Origin: an uncultured Eubacteriaceae bacterium
GTDB lineage: Bacteria; Bacillota; Clostridia; Lachnospirales; CAG-274
DNA: 64,000 bases
Direction: 5' to 3'
Assembly: GCA_947086655.1 (NCBI GenBank)
Contig: CAMTZM010000002.1
Span: forward strand, 124,001-188,000
Both the position numbers and the translations under genes were made by a program. Positions 49,100 through 58,885 of this stretch are shown here, piece after piece; positions within the stretch are counted from its first letter, which is position 1; each line of letters starts with the position of its first letter. The notes beneath the pieces were generated by a model. It saw nothing but the letters and a program-made list of their open reading frames with translations, was not told where the DNA came from and did not search any database.

Positions 49100-51493
49100 A
49101 TGAATTTGCCCATTAGCTGGCTTAAAGATTATGTTGATATAGACTGTGACACTAAAACATTTGCTGATAAAATGACCTTGTCAGGCTCAAAAGTTGAATC
49201 TGTAACTAATGCCGGCGATTTTATAAGTAATGTTGTAGTTGGAAAGGTACTTTCCATTGATAAACATCCCGATGCTGATAAACTTGTTATTTGCCAAATT
49301 GACGTTGGACAAAGTGAGCCTATACAAATTGTTACCGGAGCGTCTAACTTATATGTAGGCGCTTTTGTGCCTGTTGCACTTGACGGTGCAAAATTATGCG
49401 GAGGCATAAAAATAAAAAAAGGTAAACTTAGAGGTGTTGTATCAAATGGAATGATGTGTTCTGTTGAAGAACTTGGATTTACAAGAAATGATTATCCAGA
49501 AGCTCCTGAACACGGAATTTATATATTTGATAAAGAATATGCCTTAGGTTCTGATGTAAAGCCTATTCTTGAAATAGACGACGATGTTGTTGAATTTGAA
49601 ATAACATCAAACCGTCCTGACTGTTTTAGCATAGTTGGACTTGCAAGAGAAGCAGCGGCTACTTTTAAAAAACCGTTTAAATATCCTAAAATTAGCGTTA
49701 AAGAAGAAGGCGGCTTAAATACTTCTGATATGATTTCAGTGGAAATAAAAAATCCTGAGCTTTGCCCGCGATATATAGCAAGAGCTGTAAAAAATGTAAA
49801 AATAGGACCTTCTCCTCAGTGGTTAAGACATAGGCTAACAGCTTCTGGAATAAGACCTATTAATAATATTGTAGATATAACAAATTATGTAATGCTTGAG
49901 CTTGGACAGCCAATGCACGCTTTTGATATAGATAGTATAGATGAAAGAAAGATAATTGTAAGAAATGCTGAAGATGGTGAAAAAATTGTAACTCTTGATG
50001 GAGTCGAACGTGAACTTGATTCATCTATGCTTGTAATTTCAGATTGCAGCAAAGCGGTTGCAGTTGCTGGAGTAATGGGCGGAGAAAACTCAAAAATAAC
50101 AGAAAATGCCTCGGCTATATTATTTGAGTCTGCAAATTTTAATGGTCCTAATGTAAGAATAACAGCAAAAAAATTAGGTCTTCGTACTGATGCTTCAGGA
50201 AAGTATGAAAAAGGACTTGACCCTAATTTATCTTTAGATGCTGTAAACCGTGCTGTACAGCTTGTTGAGCTTTTGGGCTGCGGAGAGGTTATAGAAGGAA
50301 TGGTAGATTGTTATCCTAATAAAAAAGAAAAATCAAGGTTAAAATACTCTCCGGAAAATATTAATAAACTTTTAGGCATAAATATATCTTCTGATGAAAT
50401 GATAGAAATTTTCAAACTTATAGAAGTTGACGCAGACGGAAAAGAGGCTGTAATCCCTACTTTTAGACCTGATTTAGAATCGGAGGCCGATTTAGCAGAA
50501 GAAATAGCAAGATTTTATGGATACGATAATATTGATACAACACTTGCTGCCGGAACTCCAACTGTGGGAAAGAAAAACAAAAAACAAATTATAGAAGATA
50601 TAATAAGAAATATAATGACAGCAAATGGTTTATCGGAAGCAATGACTTTTTCGTTTGAAAGTGCAAAAGTATTTGATAAACTTGGATTAGATAAAGATGA
50701 TAAAAAAAGAACTACCGTTACTATATCAAATCCTTTAGGTGAAGATTTCAGTGTAATGAGAACCACTTCTATAAACGGAATGCTGAATTCTTTGTCAATA
50801 AACTATAATAGAAGAAACTCAAGTGCTTATTTATTTGAACTTGCTAAAGTATATATACCAGAAAGTATTCCGCTTGAAAAACTTCCTTATGAAAAAAACG
50901 TATTATCCATAGGAATGTATGGAAATACCGACTTTTTTGAATTAAAGGGAATAATAGAAGAACTATTTGATGTACTTGCATTAAGCGATAAAACAGAATA
51001 TATATCAGAAACCAATATAAGCTATATGCACCCCGGCCGCTGTGCAAAGATTGTAACCGAAAATAAGATTATAGGAATAATAGGACAAATTCATCCTAAT
51101 ACAGCTAAAGCTTATAATATAGGAACAGATGTTTATGTATGTGAATTAGATATAGATGTTTTAATTAACTTAGCTGTATTCTCAAAAACTTATAACCCTT
51201 TGCCGAAATATCCATCAGTTCAAAGAGATATAGCTCTTATTGTTAAAGATGATATACCTGTAAAAAGCATTGAAAAAATAATAAAAAACAAGGGTGGAAA
51301 ACTTCTTGAGAGCATAACACTTTTTGATGTATATAAAGGCGGACAAATAGAAAAAGGTTATAAATCAGTGGCTTATAATATAACATTTAGGTCTTTGGAA
51401 AATACGTTAAAAGATGATGAAGTAAATCCTATTGTAAACAAAATATTAAAAGCAATTGAAAATGAACTTGGCGCTCAATTAAGAGAAAAATAA
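49100..51493 (+). CDS. pheT: Phenylalanine-tRNA ligase beta subunit
   Basis: About 797 residues, the full bacterial length: an N-terminal tRNA-binding (EMAP/OB) domain (about 40-150), B3/B4 editing domain, B5 domains, catalytic-like core and a C-terminal anticodon-binding ferredoxin fold (YPSVQRDIALIV). It contributes editing and tRNA recognition to the PheST enzyme. It follows pheS by 46 bases with AGGGAGGA before the ATG and shares the T-box control. Confidence 0.97.
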   Translation: MNLPISWLKDYVDIDCDTKTFADKMTLSGSKVESVTNAGDFISNVVVGKVLSIDKHPDADKLVICQIDVGQSEPIQIVTGASNLYVGAFVPVALDGAKLCGGIKIKKGKLRGVVSNGMMCSVEELGFTRNDYPEAPEHGIYIFDKEYALGSDVKPILEIDDDVVEFEITSNRPDCFSIVGLAREAAATFKKPFKYPKISVKEEGGLNTSDMISVEIKNPELCPRYIARAVKNVKIGPSPQWLRHRLTASGIRPINNIVDITNYVMLELGQPMHAFDIDSIDERKIIVRNAEDGEKIVTLDGVERELDSSMLVISDCSKAVAVAGVMGGENSKITENASAILFESANFNGPNVRITAKKLGLRTDASGKYEKGLDPNLSLDAVNRAVQLVELLGCGEVIEGMVDCYPNKKEKSRLKYSPENINKLLGINISSDEMIEIFKLIEVDADGKEAVIPTFRPDLESEADLAEEIARFYGYDNIDTTLAAGTPTVGKKNKKQIIEDIIRNIMTANGLSEAMTFSFESAKVFDKLGLDKDDKKRTTVTISNPLGEDFSVMRTTSINGMLNSLSINYNRRNSSAYLFELAKVYIPESIPLEKLPYEKNVLSIGMYGNTDFFELKGIIEELFDVLALSDKTEYISETNISYMHPGRCAKIVTENKIIGIIGQIHPNTAKAYNIGTDVYVCELDIDVLINLAVFSKTYNPLPKYPSVQRDIALIVKDDIPVKSIEKIIKNKGGKLLESITLFDVYKGGQIEKGYKSVAYNITFRSLENTLKDDEVNPIVNKILKAIENELGAQLREK

Positions 51494-51509
51494 TAAGGCA
51501 GGCTTGATT

Positions 51510-52391
51510 ATGGAAGATTATGATTTATTGTCGAATATACAAAAAAAGATGCCGCATTTAAGCAAAGGACAAAAAAGAATAGCTAATTTTCTTATTGAAC
51601 ATCTTGATAAAGCGGTTTATCTAACAGCGTCAAAATTAGGTGAGATATCTGGAGTAAGCGAATCAACCGTAGTAAGATTCGCAATTGAAATGGGTTTTGA
51701 CGGTTATCCTAAACTTCAAAAAGCCATTGAGGAGCTTGTGAGAAATAAACTTACAGCCGTACAAAGAATAGAGGTTACATCTGACAGAATAGAAAGAGAT
51801 AAAAATATTCTTAAATCGGTATTAAAAGCTGATGCTGAAAGAATATGCATGACTTTAAATGAAATAGATGAAAATACGTTTGAAAAAGCTGTAAATAAAA
51901 TATTGAGTGCAAGAAAAATATATGTTGTAGGAGGAAGGAGTTCGGCTGCTTTATCAAGCTTTCTTTCTTTTTACCTTAACCTTATGGTTGATAATGTTAT
52001 AGGAGTTAATTCTTCCAATGTTACAGAGGTTTTTGAGCAAATATACAGAATTGAAGAATGTGATGTTTTCATTGGAATAAGTTTTCCTCGTTATTCTCAA
52101 AAAACAATAAAAGCAATGGAATATGCTTTTAACAAAAATGCTTTTACAATAGCGATTACAGATAGTTTATTTTCGCCGCTTGCTAAATTTGCTAAAAATT
52201 GTCTTCCTGCTCATAGCGATATGATTTCTTTTGTTGATTCTTTAGTTGCGCCGCTTAGTGTTATAAACGCTTTGCTTGTTTCTGTAAGTGTAAACAAAAA
52301 AGACGATATTATTAAAAATCTTGCTAATCTTGAAGGACTATGGAATGAGTATCAAGTTTATACATCTAATAAATCTAAAAAATATATATAA
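51510..52391 (+). CDS. MurR/RpiR family transcriptional regulator
   Basis: About 293 residues. The N-terminal helix-turn-helix contains AVYLTASKLGEISGVSESTVVRFA, and the SIS sugar-isomerase domain follows (YVVGGRSSAALSSFLSFYL). Such proteins sense phosphosugars. It lies 16 bases after pheT and may share its transcript. No sugar-metabolism gene is next to it, so its regulon is unknown. I choose ATG 51510; a TTG at 51504 is possible. A terminator follows. Confidence 0.92.
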   Translation: MEDYDLLSNIQKKMPHLSKGQKRIANFLIEHLDKAVYLTASKLGEISGVSESTVVRFAIEMGFDGYPKLQKAIEELVRNKLTAVQRIEVTSDRIERDKNILKSVLKADAERICMTLNEIDENTFEKAVNKILSARKIYVVGGRSSAALSSFLSFYLNLMVDNVIGVNSSNVTEVFEQIYRIEECDVFIGISFPRYSQKTIKAMEYAFNKNAFTIAITDSLFSPLAKFAKNCLPAHSDMISFVDSLVAPLSVINALLVSVSVNKKDDIIKNLANLEGLWNEYQVYTSNKSKKYI

Positions 52392-52456: not shown

Positions 52457-53680
52457 ATGAAAAATGTAATTGTAATAGGCGGAGGACCGGCCGGAATGAT
52501 TGCAGCCGGTATAGCGGCAAAAAACGGAAACAAAACAATACTGATTGAAAAAAATGAAAAGCTTGGTAAAAAATTGTATATTACAGGTAAAGGAAGATGT
52601 AATTTAACAAACGCCTCCGACCCTGAAACACTTATAAAAAATATAACTGGAAATCCTTATTTTTTATACAGCGCTTTTTATACTTTCACAAGTCAAGATA
52701 CAATGGAATTTTTTGAAAAACTTGGGGTTAGATTAAAAGTTGAAAGAGGAAACAGGGTTTTCCCTGTTTCCGACAAATCAAGCGATATAATAAAAGCGCT
52801 TGAGCGTTATTTAAAAATTAATAAAGTTGATGTAATTTTAAAAAAAGAAGTTGATGATATAATTATAGAAAATAAGTTAATAAAAGGAGTTCATACAAAA
52901 GACAACAAACTGTATTTATGTGATAATCTAATCATAGCAACAGGAGGACTTTCATATCCTGTTACAGGCTCAACTGGTGATGGATACAGATTTGCTAAAA
53001 AAGCCGGACATAATGTAACAAAGCTTTATCCTTCTATTGTGCCTCTTGTATCAGAAGAAAAATGGTGCAGTGAACTTCAAGGGCTTACTTTAAAAAATGT
53101 TTCAATTAATTTAAAGGTTGGCGGAAAAACAATTTATAAAGATTTTGGGGAAATGCTTTTTACTCATTTTGGCGTTTCCGGTCCTATAATATTAAGCGCA
53201 AGCAGATTTATAATTGATAAAATAGATAAAAAACCTCAAATAATTATAGATGTAAAACCATCTCTTAATGAAAAAGAACTTGATAACAGAATATTAAGAG
53301 ATTTTAAAAAATATAAAAACAAAGCATTTAAAAATTCTCTTTCAGAACTTCTTCCTAAAAAATTAATACCTGTTATAATTAAATTATCAGAAATAGATGA
53401 AAACAAACAAGTTAATGAAATTACAAAAGAAGAAAGAAAAAAACTTGTTTATACCCTTAAAAATATAACTATAAACATAAAAAGCACAAGGGATTTTTCA
53501 GAAGCCGTTATAACTGCTGGAGGAGTTGATGTAAACGATATTGAGCCTTCAACTATGAAATCAAAAATAATTGATAATTTAAGTTTTGCTGGCGAGGTAA
53601 TTGATACTGACGGTTTTACTGGAGGTTTCAATTTACAAATAGCGTTTTCAACTGGTTATTTAGCCGGAAATAATATATAA
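52457..53680 (+). CDS. FAD-dependent oxidoreductase, HI0933/YhiN family
   Basis: About 407 residues. The dinucleotide-binding motif VIGGGPAGMIAAGIAAKNG (residues 6-24), GKGRCNLTN, a second FAD-contact motif IIATGGLSYPVTGSTGDG and the C-terminal GGVDVNDIEPSTMKSK and GFNLQIAFSTGYLAG are typical of the HI0933-like (aminoacetone oxidase-type) flavoproteins. The substrate is not established for the family. It is the first of a run FAD oxidoreductase, AroH-Cmk, IspH-S1, with spacings of 20 and 4 bases, an order seen in other Clostridia. Confidence 0.92.
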   Translation: MKNVIVIGGGPAGMIAAGIAAKNGNKTILIEKNEKLGKKLYITGKGRCNLTNASDPETLIKNITGNPYFLYSAFYTFTSQDTMEFFEKLGVRLKVERGNRVFPVSDKSSDIIKALERYLKINKVDVILKKEVDDIIIENKLIKGVHTKDNKLYLCDNLIIATGGLSYPVTGSTGDGYRFAKKAGHNVTKLYPSIVPLVSEEKWCSELQGLTLKNVSINLKVGGKTIYKDFGEMLFTHFGVSGPIILSASRFIIDKIDKKPQIIIDVKPSLNEKELDNRILRDFKKYKNKAFKNSLSELLPKKLIPVIIKLSEIDENKQVNEITKEERKKLVYTLKNITINIKSTRDFSEAVITAGGVDVNDIEPSTMKSKIIDNLSFAGEVIDTDGFTGGFNLQIAFSTGYLAGNNI

Positions 53681-53700
53681 TACTAAAAGGAATGATAAAT

Positions 53701-54726
53701 ATGAGTATTTGTTGTATCAGAGGCGCAATTACTGTCGAGGAAAATACAAGAGAAAACATATTGTATAATTCAAAGCTTCTTTTAAATGAAATTATTAAAA
53801 AAAATAATATTAACATAAATTCTATAAACTCTGTATTTTTTACGGCAACAAAGGACATTACAAAAGTATATCCAGCGGTTGCGGCAAGAGAAATTGGAAT
53901 ATGCGAAGCCGGACTTATGTGTGTACAGGAAATGTTTGTAGAAGGAAGTCTTGAAATGTGTATACGTGTGCTTATAACAGCCAATATTGATATAAACCAA
54001 AAAGATGTAAAACATGTATATATGAAAAACGCAAAAAAACTAAGACCGGATTTATCTGATAAAAAAAATATATGCGTTGCAATTGACGGTCCGGCAGGTT
54101 CCGGAAAAAGCACCATAGCAAGAATAATAGCAAAAGAACTCAATTTTATTTATGTCGATACGGGAGCAATGTATAGAAGTGTGGCTTTATATTGTATAAA
54201 TAATAATATAAGTACAAATGATAATAAAAAAATTATAAATATACTTGACAATATAGATATTAAGATTGATTATATAAATGATATACAAAATATATTTTTA
54301 AATGAGGAAAATGTAACTGAATTAATAAGAAATCAAATTGTAGCCGATGGAGCGTCTAAAGTTGCTGCCATAAAAGAAGTTAGAGAAAAACTTGTAGATA
54401 TTCAAAGAAAAATAGCTCTTAATAAAGATGTTATAATGGATGGGAGAGACATTGGAACACACGTACTTCCAAATGCTCATGTAAAAATATATTTAGATGC
54501 AAGTATTGATGAGAGAACTAAGCGAAGATGTAACGAACTCAAAGAAAACGGTATAGCTTTTAAAGAAGATGAAATAAAAAAAGAAATAGTAAAAAGGGAT
54601 AATTATGACAAAAATAGAAAAGAATCACCTTTAAAACAGGCTGAAGACGCTATTTTTATTGATACTTCCTCAATGAAAATAGAAGATGTAAAAAATGAAA
54701 TAATAAAAATAATAAAAAGGGTTTGA
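53701..54726 (+). CDS. Fused chorismate mutase (AroH type) and cytidylate kinase
   Basis: About 341 residues in one frame. Residues 1-120 are an AroH-type chorismate mutase: Arg7, Arg63, Cys74, Glu77, Arg89 and Tyr107 occupy the positions of the Bacillus AroH active site (each within one residue of the reference number), ending in LRPDLS. Residues 125-341 are cytidylate kinase, with P-loop GPAGSGKST at 130-138, DTGAMYRSV, and MDGRDIGT. One half makes prephenate, the other phosphorylates CMP and dCMP. The start at 53701 is set by AAAAGGA about 10 bases upstream; ATG 53692 is too close to it. The join is about 5 residues long. Confidence 0.9.
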
Positions 54727-54730
54727 AAAA

Positions 54731-56653
54731 ATGGAAATAATATTGGCTAAATCAGCCGGATTTTGTTTTGGAGTTAAACGTGCTGTCGAGTGTGTGTATA
54801 ATGAAGTGGAAAAAGGGAAAATATATACTTATGGTCCTATTATTCATAATAAAGAAGTTATAAACGATTTAAAAAAATATGGTGCTGATATATGTGAAGA
54901 TTTAGATAAAATAAAAAAAGGAAAAGTTATTCTTCGCTCTCATGGAGTTCCCGAAAACGTGTATTTACAACTTGAAAAAAAAGGTATTGAATATATTGAT
55001 TGTACATGTCCTTTTGTAAAAAAGATTCACAATATAGTAAAAAAGGAGTATAATGAAGGTTATAATATAATTATTGTAGGAAATTCCTCTCATCCTGAAG
55101 TACAGGGGATAAACGACAGAGCTTTAAACAGCGCCATTATATTAAATTCATATGAAGAAGCCGAAAAAGCTGAGTTTGACAAAAATTCAAAATATGCTCT
55201 TGTTGTACAAACGACATTCCAAAAGGATATTTTTGACAGAATTATAAATCTTATTAAAGACAAAATAAATTTAAAAGTTTATAATACAATTTGTTCCGCA
55301 ACAAGTGACAGGCAAAACGAGGCTGTTGATATTTCAAAAAAAGTTGATAAAATGATTGTTTTAGGAGATAAAAACAGCGCAAATACTCAAAAATTATATG
55401 ATATTTGCAAAAAAAATTGCAAAAATACATTTTTATGTGAAACTATTTACGATTTAGAGTTGAATATTTTGCAAAAAAATGATAAAATCGGAGTAACTGC
55501 TGGTGCGTCTACACCACCGGCGATAATAAAGGAGGCTATAAGAATAATGAATGCAAATGAAAGTAAACAATCTTTTGAGGAGATGCTGAATGATAGCTTA
55601 GTTACTTTACATACAGGCGATATTGTCAAAGGTACTGTTATCGGTGTAAGTAATGGCGAAGTTTCAGTTAATCTTGGGTACAAATCTGATGGAATTATAA
55701 CAAAATCAGAATTTTCTGAAGATGTTAATATTGACCCGTCAGAACATGTTAAGCCTGGCGACGAAATAGAAGTTTATGTTATTAGGGTAAACGACGGCGA
55801 CGGAAATGTTCTTTGTTCAAAGAAGAGACTTGATGCTACAAAAGGTTATGAGGAGATTGAAAAAGCATATAACGAAAAATCAATCGTTAAAGGCAAAGTA
55901 ACAGAAGTTGTTAAAAGCGGTCTTATTGTTCTTGTAAACAATATAAGAGCGTTTGTTCCTTCCTCACAAATCTCAAACAGATATGTTGAAGATTTAAAAA
56001 GTTTTGTAGGACAAGAACTTAATTTTAATATTCTTGAGTTTGACAGAAGCAAACGTCGTATTGTTGTAGGCAGAAAAGACCTTGTACAGAAAGAATATGA
56101 AGAAAAGAAAAATAAGGTTTTCAATTCAATTAAGGCTGGAGACAGAATTGAAGGTACTGTAAGCCGTATTGTTGATTTTGGAGCATTTGTTGATTTAGGC
56201 GGCGTTGACGGACTTGTTCACATTTCTGAAATATCATGGGGACGTGTTAAAAAAGTGTCTGATGTTTTATCTGAAGGAGATAAAGTTACAGTTACGGTAT
56301 TGGATATAAATAATGAAAAAGGAAAAATATCATTATCATTAAAAGATATTAACAATGACCCATGGAACAAAGTTTCAGAAAAATATAAAGAAGGCATGAT
56401 TGTTGATGGAACAGTTGTGAGAATGGTGCCTTTTGGGGCATTTGTTGAACTTGAGGAAGGCGTTGACGGGTTAGTTCATATATCACAAATTTCTCAAAAA
56501 CATATAGCAAAGGCTGAAGATGTTCTTAGTATTGGACAAAAAATTAAAGCTAAAGTTACAGAAGTTAATTTAGAAAACAAAAAAATAAGTTTAAGCATTA
56601 AAGATGCGGAAGGTGTAGACGCCGCAGAGGGTGCAGATTCTAACGAGCAGTAA
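54731..56653 (+). CDS. ispH: Fused HMB-PP reductase (IspH) and S1 RNA-binding protein (RpsA-like)
   Basis: About 640 residues. Residues 1-278 are IspH: Cys12 ([10 protein letters not shown]), Cys93 (DCTCPF) and Cys188 (TICSAT) hold the [4Fe-4S] cluster, His39, His71 and His121 line the active site, giving IPP and DMAPP in the non-mevalonate pathway. Four S1 domains follow at about 296-367, 384-451, 469-539 and 554-625, the last two near-canonical ([17 protein letters not shown]). This fusion is known in Clostridia. The S1 part probably acts as the ribosomal S1-like protein. It starts 4 bases after the AroH-Cmk gene. Confidence 0.95.
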
Positions 56654-56682: not shown

Positions 56683-57897
56683 ATGAAGTTAAAAAGATTA
56701 GCGGCTTTGTTGACAGCCGGAATATTTGTTTTATCCGCAGTTGGCTGTACGGGCGGCGAAACATCGAAAGATGATTTAAATGCTGATTCAGGAACACAAA
56801 CTGAAAATAATAACGACGGTAATAATAATACTTCTGATAACTCAGACACAATTAAAATAGGAGGTATAGGGCCTCTTACAGGTGAACTTGCTATGTATGG
56901 AACAAACGCAATGAACGGCGCTCAGCTTGCTATAAATGAGTCTGATGGCGCTTTAGGCAAGAAGATTGAGTTTATCATACTTGATGATAAAGGAGATATT
57001 ACAGAAGCTACAAACGCTTATAATAAGCATGTAAATAACAATGAAGTTTCTGCTATTATAGGAGCTGTTACAAGTCAGCCAAGTGCGGCTGTTGCCGTAG
57101 CGGCAGCAAAGGATAATACGCCTATGATAACACCTACCGGAACTGCTATTGATATAACAACTTATGGTGAAAATGTTTTCCGTGCTTGTTATACTGACCC
57201 TTTTCAAGGAAAAGTTATAGCAGCCTTTGCGGCATCAAGCCTTGAAAAGAAAACAGCTGCTGTTATTTATAATAAAGACAGTGACTATTCGATAGGATGT
57301 GCTGAGGCTTTTAAAACAACATTTGAGGAAAAAGGCGGAAGTATTGTAGGATATGAGAGTTATTCAAATTCAGATAAAGATTTTAAATCTCAGCTTACAA
57401 ATATAGCATCAAAGAATCCTGATGTTTTATTTATACCTGATTATTATTCAGTTGTAGCTTTAATAGCTAAACAGGTAAAAGATGTAAACTTAAAAGCTGT
57501 TCTTTTAGGTACAGATGGCTGGGACAGCGTTCACTCAGTTGTTGAAGATCCTTCATTAATTGAAGGGGCATTCTTCTGCAACCATTATTCACCTGATGAT
57601 ACTGACCCGGAAGTACAAAACTTTATAACAAAATATAAAGAAACTTACGGAAGTGAACCTAATGCTTTTGCTGCTTTAGGTTACGATGCTGCAAAATTAA
57701 TAATTAACGCTATTGAAACAGCCGGAACAACTGATAAAGAAGCAGTAGTTGAAGCGTTAAAAAATACAGATATTTCAGCTGTAACAGGTTCAATTAAATT
57801 TGACGAGGAAAGAAATCCTATAAAGAGCGTTTCTATTTTACAGATTCAAAACGGACAATATAAGATGTATGAAAAGCTTAACCCAAGTGACCTGTAA
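56683..57897 (+). CDS. livJ: Branched-chain amino acid ABC transporter, substrate-binding lipoprotein
   Basis: About 404 residues. A lipoprotein signal peptide ends at Cys22 (LSAVGC), followed by an Asn/Asp-rich linker and a type I periplasmic-binding fold starting IKIGGIGPLTGELAMYG. It captures Leu/Ile/Val or a related amino acid at the outer membrane face of the cytoplasmic membrane. AGGAGG precedes the ATG. Only 29 bases separate it from the IspH-S1 gene with no terminator, so a promoter inside that gene or read-through must serve it. A strong hairpin follows, setting it apart from the permease genes. Confidence 0.94.
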   Translation: MKLKRLAALLTAGIFVLSAVGCTGGETSKDDLNADSGTQTENNNDGNNNTSDNSDTIKIGGIGPLTGELAMYGTNAMNGAQLAINESDGALGKKIEFIILDDKGDITEATNAYNKHVNNNEVSAIIGAVTSQPSAAVAVAAAKDNTPMITPTGTAIDITTYGENVFRACYTDPFQGKVIAAFAASSLEKKTAAVIYNKDSDYSIGCAEAFKTTFEEKGGSIVGYESYSNSDKDFKSQLTNIASKNPDVLFIPDYYSVVALIAKQVKDVNLKAVLLGTDGWDSVHSVVEDPSLIEGAFFCNHYSPDDTDPEVQNFITKYKETYGSEPNAFAALGYDAAKLIINAIETAGTTDKEAVVEALKNTDISAVTGSIKFDEERNPIKSVSILQIQNGQYKMYEKLNPSDL

Positions 57898-57901
57898 TTA
57901 G

Positions 57902-57930
57902 AGCAAATACTTAATAAATTAGTGTTTGCT
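57902..57930 (+). other. Hairpin just after livJ
   Basis: AGCAAATAC (57902-57910) pairs with GTGTTTGCT (57922-57930), one G-U pair, 11-base loop, no T tract. It may protect the livJ mRNA 3' end. Confidence 0.5.
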
Positions 57931-57952
57931 GAAAATTATTAATAACACCTGT

Positions 57953-57986
57953 AAATTAAGGGGGATAAATTTATCCCCCTTAATTT
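57953..57986 (+). terminator. Perfect 34-bp palindrome between livJ and livH
   Basis: AAATTAAGGGGGATAAA (57953-57969) is followed directly by its exact complement (57970-57986). It is a partial terminator or RNA processing signal that would leave much more message for the binding protein than for the membrane parts, as is common in ABC operons. Confidence 0.8.
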
Positions 57987-58012
57987 ATAGTTGTTTAAAA
58001 GTGAGGGATTAT

Positions 58013-58885
58013 ATGAATTTTATACAACAGCTTATAAATGGATTAAGCATAGGCAGTGTTTACGCACTGGTAGCTTTAGGATATACAATGGTATATGGAA
58101 TTGTAAAGCTTATTAACTTTGCCCATGGAGATATTATAATGGTAGGCTCATATATAGTTCTTTTTTCTATGAAAAGCGCTGGTTTTCCTTTTTGGATTTC
58201 AATATTGGGAGCTTTTACTCTTTGCGCAATATTGGGAGTTGTTATTGAGCGTGTCGCATATAAGCCTTTAAGACAAGCTCCGCGTATTTCAGCTCTTATT
58301 ACAGCAATAGGCGTAAGTATTTTAATTCAAAATGTATTTATGCTTTCATTTAAGCCTGACCCACGGCCTTTTCCGAATGTAATAGACGGAAATTTCGGTA
58401 TTGGTTCTATTAATGTAAGTTATACAACAGCGTTGACAATAGGAATTTCAGTTCTGCTTATGATTCTTTTACAGCTTATCGTTAAAAAAACTAAAGTAGG
58501 AAAGGCAATGCGTGCTGTTTCGGAAGATGAAGGTGCTGCTTCTCTTATGGGTATTAATGTAAATCGTACAATATCAATAACATTTGCTATTGGCTCAGGT
58601 CTTGCAGCCGTAGGCGGTGCTCTTTACAGTGCAGCATATCCTCTTGTTGACCCTTTTATGGGAGCAATGTTTGGTTTAAAAGCGTTTGTCGCTGCTGTTA
58701 TAGGAGGTATAGGAAGCATTCCCGGAGCAATTTTAGGCGGACTTATAATGGGCATTGCAGAGAGCATGACAAAAGCTTATATATCTTCTCAGCTTACAGA
58801 TATAATTGTTTTCGGTATTTTGATAGTCGTACTTCTTGTAAAGCCTTCCGGTATTATGGGCAAGAATGTAAAAGAGAAAGTGTAG
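58013..58885 (+). CDS. livH: Branched-chain amino acid ABC transporter permease LivH
   Basis: About 290 residues with about eight membrane helices. GLSIGSVYALVALGYTMVYG and INFAHGDIIMVG at the N-terminus and VGGALYSAAYPL and FVAAVIGGIGSIPGAILGG near the C-terminus are standard LivH motifs. It forms the channel with LivM. The start at 58013 follows GAGGGA; the frame extends upstream into the palindrome without a ribosome binding site. Confidence 0.95.
   Translation: MNFIQQLINGLSIGSVYALVALGYTMVYGIVKLINFAHGDIIMVGSYIVLFSMKSAGFPFWISILGAFTLCAILGVVIERVAYKPLRQAPRISALITAIGVSILIQNVFMLSFKPDPRPFPNVIDGNFGIGSINVSYTTALTIGISVLLMILLQLIVKKTKVGKAMRAVSEDEGAASLMGINVNRTISITFAIGSGLAAVGGALYSAAYPLVDPFMGAMFGLKAFVAAVIGGIGSIPGAILGGLIMGIAESMTKAYISSQLTDIIVFGILIVVLLVKPSGIMGKNVKEKV

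Follow-up and report, generated by a model that had tools for sequence, protein, structure and literature searches.

A single gene in the stretch analysed here (the window: 64,000 nucleotides of the genome of an uncultured Eubacteriaceae bacterium) encodes a type I (AroH) chorismate mutase and a CMP kinase (Cmk) joined in one polypeptide chain, and the fusion is confirmed as genuine. Chorismate mutase, which serves aromatic amino acids, and CMP kinase, which serves nucleotides, are unrelated household enzymes. We hold it to be very probable that the product is a bifunctional housekeeping protein that came from an adjacent aroH-cmk pair by loss of the stop codon between the two genes, and that this step has been repeated many times. 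AroH-Cmk is a sound, little-described composite enzyme whose recurrence is its notable part. Its recognition corrects a single-function annotation for a likely essential protein of gut and environmental Clostridia.

Two enzyme domains in one reading frame

The AroH-Cmk gene is a single stop-free frame on the forward strand (53701-54726) comprising 341 codons and a TGA stop. The frame is also open from an ATG at 53692, the start given in the ORF listing, which yields a version of 344 residues. The sole Shine-Dalgarno-like stretch at this place, recognised by reading the sequence (AAAAGGA, 53685..53691, forward strand), lies 9 nt before the ATG at 53701 and directly touches the ATG at 53692, and for this reason translation is likelier to start at 53701. 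Residues 1-118 (53701..54054) form the AroH domain, residues 119-122 (54055..54066) the linker, and residues 123-341 (54067..54723) the CMP kinase domain with its P-loop and CMP-site residues, all on the forward strand. The length of the linker is set by the choice of domain borders and amounts to about 4-7 residues.

Both domains were recognised in profile searches well above the respective cut-offs. PF07736 (AroH) matched residues 4-118 with 143.7 bits (cut-off 27) and PF02224 (Cmk) residues 126-339 with 246.3 bits (cut-off 26), while the NCBIfam-type profiles TIGR01796 (AroH) and TIGR00017 (Cmk) gave 120.1 and 241.1 bits, the curated cut-offs being 82 and 135.55. The initial annotation, which had placed an AroH and a cytidylate kinase in the same frame with a linker of about 5 residues, is borne out by these matches. 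The six AroH active-site residues that it listed were all found in the window protein as well (R7, R63, C74, E77, R89, Y107), and we take them to be the equivalents of the catalytic residues R7, R63, C75, E78, R90 and Y108 of B. subtilis AroH. In the Cmk half, residues G130, G135, K136, S137, T154, R159, S219, R228, D247, R249, R299, D303 and R306 are present; they cover the P-loop and the CMP-binding positions, the latter presumably as in E. coli Cmk, from which they were assigned.

An AlphaFold2 model built from an alignment of 49 fused sequences (mean pLDDT 94, pTM 0.66; pLDDT 75 for residues 111-120 around the linker) predicts two confident domains whose mutual placement is uncertain. Compared by Foldseek, the AroH half resembled B. 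subtilis AroH (2cht) with a TM score of 0.95 by target and an rmsd of 1.0, and the Cmk half a bacterial CMP kinase (1q3t) with a TM score of 0.90. The AroH half is expected to keep its trimer, and the product would then be a trimer with three flexibly tethered kinases.

AroH and Cmk each occur at one site only in the source genome, namely the fusion locus, and the genome also has one prephenate dehydratase and one chorismate synthase. No AroQ-type chorismate mutase was found in it by a PF01817 search, which gave matches in 13 of 14 control genomes. A hidden second chorismate mutase was rejected, given that neither PF01817 nor the protein itself as query found one in this genome. Because the fusion is the sole mutase site and both prephenate dehydratase and chorismate synthase are present, the AroH half would be required for phenylalanine, converting chorismate to prephenate as the cell's only recognised chorismate mutase, and probably serves tyrosine as well. 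The C-terminal Cmk half would phosphorylate CMP and dCMP. Both activities are predicted from the intact residues.

Conservation of these residues was evaluated over 106 fused sequences. In the AroH half, R7, R63 and R89 were present in all 106, Y107 in 105 and E77 in 97, and 11 of the 13 Cmk positions were invariant, with S137 and D247 present in 104. C74 was substituted in 36 of the 106 fused sequences as compared with 5 of 69 unfused neighbours, and E77 in 9 as compared with 2. Given that C74 or E77 is replaced in part of the fused set, the AroH half may be weak or altered in certain fused lineages.

Two groups of loci differ in detail at this position. Two loci of family f1, genus g4 (L028, L030) have Asp in place of Cys74 (LLDYPEL). 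In a second group of fusions, from gut Clostridia (L042, L046-L053, L058-L061, L063, L065, L068-L071, L084, L111), the junction is shorter (LRKD...NIAIDG) and Cys74 is mostly replaced by Ser or Ala.

Gene order, unfused relatives and probable repeated fusion

The gene lies between an HI0933-like flavoprotein gene (52457..53680, forward strand), which ends 20 nt before the ATG at 53701, and an IspH-ribosomal S1 fusion of the PRK00087 kind (54731..56653, forward strand), which begins 4 nt beyond the stop codon of AroH-Cmk. Two fused genes with four functions are thereby adjacent to each other. All 33 of the same-family loci that were examined have both the HI0933-like neighbour and IspH, and the order HI0933-like flavoprotein, aroH-cmk, ispH(-S1) was also found in most other clostridial loci. 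Further out, inspection by eye revealed an ORF resembling an RpiR-type regulator (51504-52391), which has pheT (49100-51493) on one side and the HI0933-like gene on the other, and ORFs resembling the binding protein and permease of a branched-chain amino acid ABC transporter (56683-58885).

The initial annotation had suggested that the fusion may only preserve an ancient gene order. A tyrA-aroF-cmk-rpsA string is documented in the 2005 TyrA family paper, whose authors interpret gene fusions as frozen gene order; in Geobacter the string has lytB (ispH) inserted behind cmk and ahead of rpsA (PMC1173090). Among the Actinomycetota loci examined, four have the order aroH-tyrA-cmk (L057, L067, L087, L104) and two the order aroH...aroA-cmk (L075, L091). 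The clostridial aroH-cmk pair looks like the old aro-cmk-rpsA string minus its middle genes. These strings, together with the unfused adjacency of aroH and cmk in many relatives, speak for an ancient order that has been kept; as an explanation of the fusion, however, gene order alone is insufficient, given that similarly close neighbours of the operon are unfused.

The latter point was quantified over 84 loci with flanking sequence. Fusion was found at 0 of 73 HI0933-AroH junctions and 0 of 77 Cmk-IspH junctions, at 71 of 84 AroH-Cmk junctions, a proportion enriched by the choice of query, and at 42 of 43 IspH-S1 junctions. The gap between the HI0933-like gene and aroH has a median of 20 nt and is in frame in 28 of 73 loci; the gap between cmk and ispH has a median of 15 nt in the window's family and of 600 nt over all loci. 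HI0933-AroH is the better control junction, since the Cmk-IspH gap is short mainly within the window's own family. With similarly close operon neighbours fused in none of these loci, proximity alone is insufficient to account for the fusion.

The state of the aroH-cmk locus was determined for 264 loci, of which 110 were fused and 108 had aroH upstream of cmk, while 38 were without an upstream aroH in the examined stretch and 8 without a cmk match. Both domains were near full length in 203 loci (L004 being excluded for its stop), and 197 were left after removal of identical loci: 102 fused, 26 in frame with a stop, 40 out of frame and 29 more than 700 nt apart. The 66 unfused close pairs thus comprise 26 in the same frame and 40 in another frame, the in-frame share being biased upward by the query. 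An intermediate is visible in one genome (G282), in which aroH ends with ...LRPDLKR-TAG, followed by AGGAGG and, still in frame, the Cmk start codon ATG; loss of the stop in such an arrangement would give the architecture of the window gene. We propose that, within one operon, drift in spacing would bring aroH and cmk into one frame and the aroH stop would then be lost.

A quick tree of 127 rows already displayed 16 changes between the fused and unfused states, at least 9 of them forced. A careful tree was built from 113 rows (54 fused) thinned at 76% identity, including 3 outgroup rows, with at most 9 rows from family f1 and at most 7 from the second fused group, and with the long-branch locus L136 excluded; it is a gene tree rather than a species tree and leaves aside genomes without aroH adjoining cmk. 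It revealed 20 state changes (bootstrap 19-21), at least 13 of which are forced by well-supported (starred) branches. A single ancient fusion was rejected, as placing the 54 fused rows in one clade costs 689 lnL (p-AU 1e-59). Clear nested gains were found in families f17 and f33, plus f93. Parsimony counts do not distinguish gain from loss; a two-rate model gave a gain rate of 0.75 and a loss rate of 0.02, with a no-gain model 16.7 lnL worse and a no-loss model equally good. These rates are rough, and that of gain may be inflated, given that rows were retrieved by similarity to the fused protein and fusions are enriched among them. The fusion has apparently originated on many independent occasions from an adjacent gene pair, and if most changes are gains, the same step would have been repeated in Clostridia and related classes.

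As to why the pair fuses, we give even chances to a neutral by-product, in which short spacing and a common operon would ease stop loss and the protein surfaces would tolerate the joining with no benefit to the cell. In-frame spacing is distributed at random on the tree (22 changes as compared with a shuffled mean of 22.0), linkers vary in length from 2 to 14, and to our knowledge the two reactions have no common substrate, all of which speaks for a neutral event. The unfused state of the similarly spaced neighbour junctions argues that at least structural tolerance is specific to this pair, and the near absence of inferred fusion losses also counts against neutrality.

Less probable, in our judgement, is that fusion was favoured because an AroH trimer holding three Cmk units would be stable, fix the dosage or allow the supply of aromatics and pyrimidines to be controlled jointly. 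The many independent origins, the almost complete lack of inferred reversals and the fixation across a whole family are consistent with such a benefit, but we know of no metabolic link between aromatic and pyrimidine supply, the modelled placement of the domains is uncertain, the linkers are not conserved, and fusions are over-represented by sampling. More doubtful still is that the aroH-cmk junction is a convergent fusion hot spot, with its 13 or more changes on this one sampled gene tree nearly all gains while similarly close operon neighbours stayed unfused; if true, this would indicate a real benefit in tethering CMP kinase to a chorismate mutase trimer and, through it, a coupling of aromatic with pyrimidine metabolism. 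Either both ends tolerate joining, namely the free C-terminus of AroH and the N-terminal strand of Cmk, or joining is beneficial, and we favour tolerance combined with a ratchet. The system amounts to a natural repeated experiment, with the same unrelated enzyme pair adjacent in many lineages, fused only in some, and an intermediate visible, and it offers a direct test of fusion by selection versus mere proximity.

The junction and the spread of the fusion across genomes

The ratchet that we favour would act through decay of the separate cmk start once the stop is lost, making the fusion hard to reverse. An ATG was present at the junction in 13 of 102 fused genes as compared with 59 of 66 unfused pairs. 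It is thus rarer at fused junctions than in segments of equal size inside the domains, where Met was found in 41-44%. In the window gene itself, none of the 17 codons scanned at the junction is an ATG, GTG or TTG. It is improbable that free Cmk is additionally made, be it by cleavage or by internal initiation. An in-frame ATG accompanied by a Shine-Dalgarno-like stretch does persist close to the junction in 9 of the 102 fused genes, from which free Cmk could be made, but 89 of the 102 lack an ATG there, and the window gene has no start codon in the segment scanned. The programmed split that the initial annotation had considered is therefore not supported, the separate cmk start being gone from most fused genes, and the product would be a single uncleaved polypeptide in the cell.

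Six fused loci (L136 of genome G447, L182, L184, L186, L187, L193) keep an in-frame junction ATG, some of them with a Shine-Dalgarno-like stretch. Fused genes of this kind are possibly young fusions. The long frames of certain unfused Cmk genes were considered as C-terminal fusions and rejected, as all six that were read end normally. The unfused Cmk of an Oscillospiraceae locus (L116) lies in a stop-to-stop frame of 353 residues, the first 130 of which look by eye like chance coding.

The prevalence of the fusion, on which the initial annotation had made no statement, was surveyed in sampled genomes, and the fusion proved to be common in Clostridia. The sample of the window's order comprised 295 genomes, 48 of them from the same family. 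A match was obtained in 45 of these 48 (none in G024, G025 and G030), and the junction was open in 45 of 45, contrary to the separate genes in close relatives that would have spoken for a sequencing or assembly error. The match was full-length and stop-free in 42; two (G238, G252) were cut by a contig end and one (G026) had a TAA inside the Cmk part, so that a reading of these interruptions as split genes was rejected. Over the whole order, a full-span stop-free fusion was present in 70 of 295 genomes, 28 of which lie outside the family. The corresponding numbers were 13 of 277 genomes for the class beyond the order and, at a strict E of 1e-60, 7 of 193 for the phylum beyond the class, including three single-contig genomes (G604, G649, G680). 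At least 26 of the 80 named loci listed carry the fusion, with Anaerotalea alkaliphila (L041) as the only named species among them. Although the source genome is a draft of 96 contigs, a stop lost between two genes by sequencing or assembly error is a negligible explanation given the open junction throughout the family, the independent genomes of other families and classes, the named strain of A. alkaliphila, and the fusions in single-contig assemblies, which besides the three above include G057, G155 and G259.

Comparison with known systems

No NCBIfam model for AroH-Cmk was among the profile matches to the window protein, and no paper on such a fusion was found in open-access PMC text, a scope that leaves room for a listing among InterPro or UniProt architectures. 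The aro-cmk-rpsA supraoperon is alike in that an aromatic gene adjoins cmk and rpsA, with lytB (ispH) possible between them; in the part of its description used here, cmk adjoins aroF (EPSP synthase) or the mutase belongs to the AroQ type, and aroH-cmk is not described (PMC1173090).

Stand-alone AroH enzymes (B. subtilis 1com and 2cht; C. thermocellum 1xho) have the fold and catalytic residues of the window AroH half in common with it, but end in a short free tail, whereas in the window protein this tail continues into Cmk. The AroA-Cmk fusion (NF008816, EPSP synthase/cytidylate kinase) is alike in arrangement: Cmk is again the C-terminal half, its N-terminal partner belongs to the shikimate/aromatic pathway, and the pair derives from the same aro-cmk string. 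That partner is, however, an EPSP synthase, and the window protein reached 178.4 bits against a cut-off of 943, through its Cmk part only. A frame of the AroA-Cmk type, with a half that resembles EPSP synthase by eye and is partly masked in the record, was seen in Candidatus Microthrix (L113).

PanC-Cmk (NF010004) and Cmk-Der (NF007071) similarly join Cmk to an unrelated household enzyme, but with another partner; the window protein scored 242.8 against 524 and 167.1 against 953, respectively, again through the Cmk part only. The IspH-S1 fusion next door (NF000907, PRK00087) is a further case of two unrelated household functions in one protein. It differs from AroH-Cmk in the enzymes joined and in having an NCBIfam model of its own.
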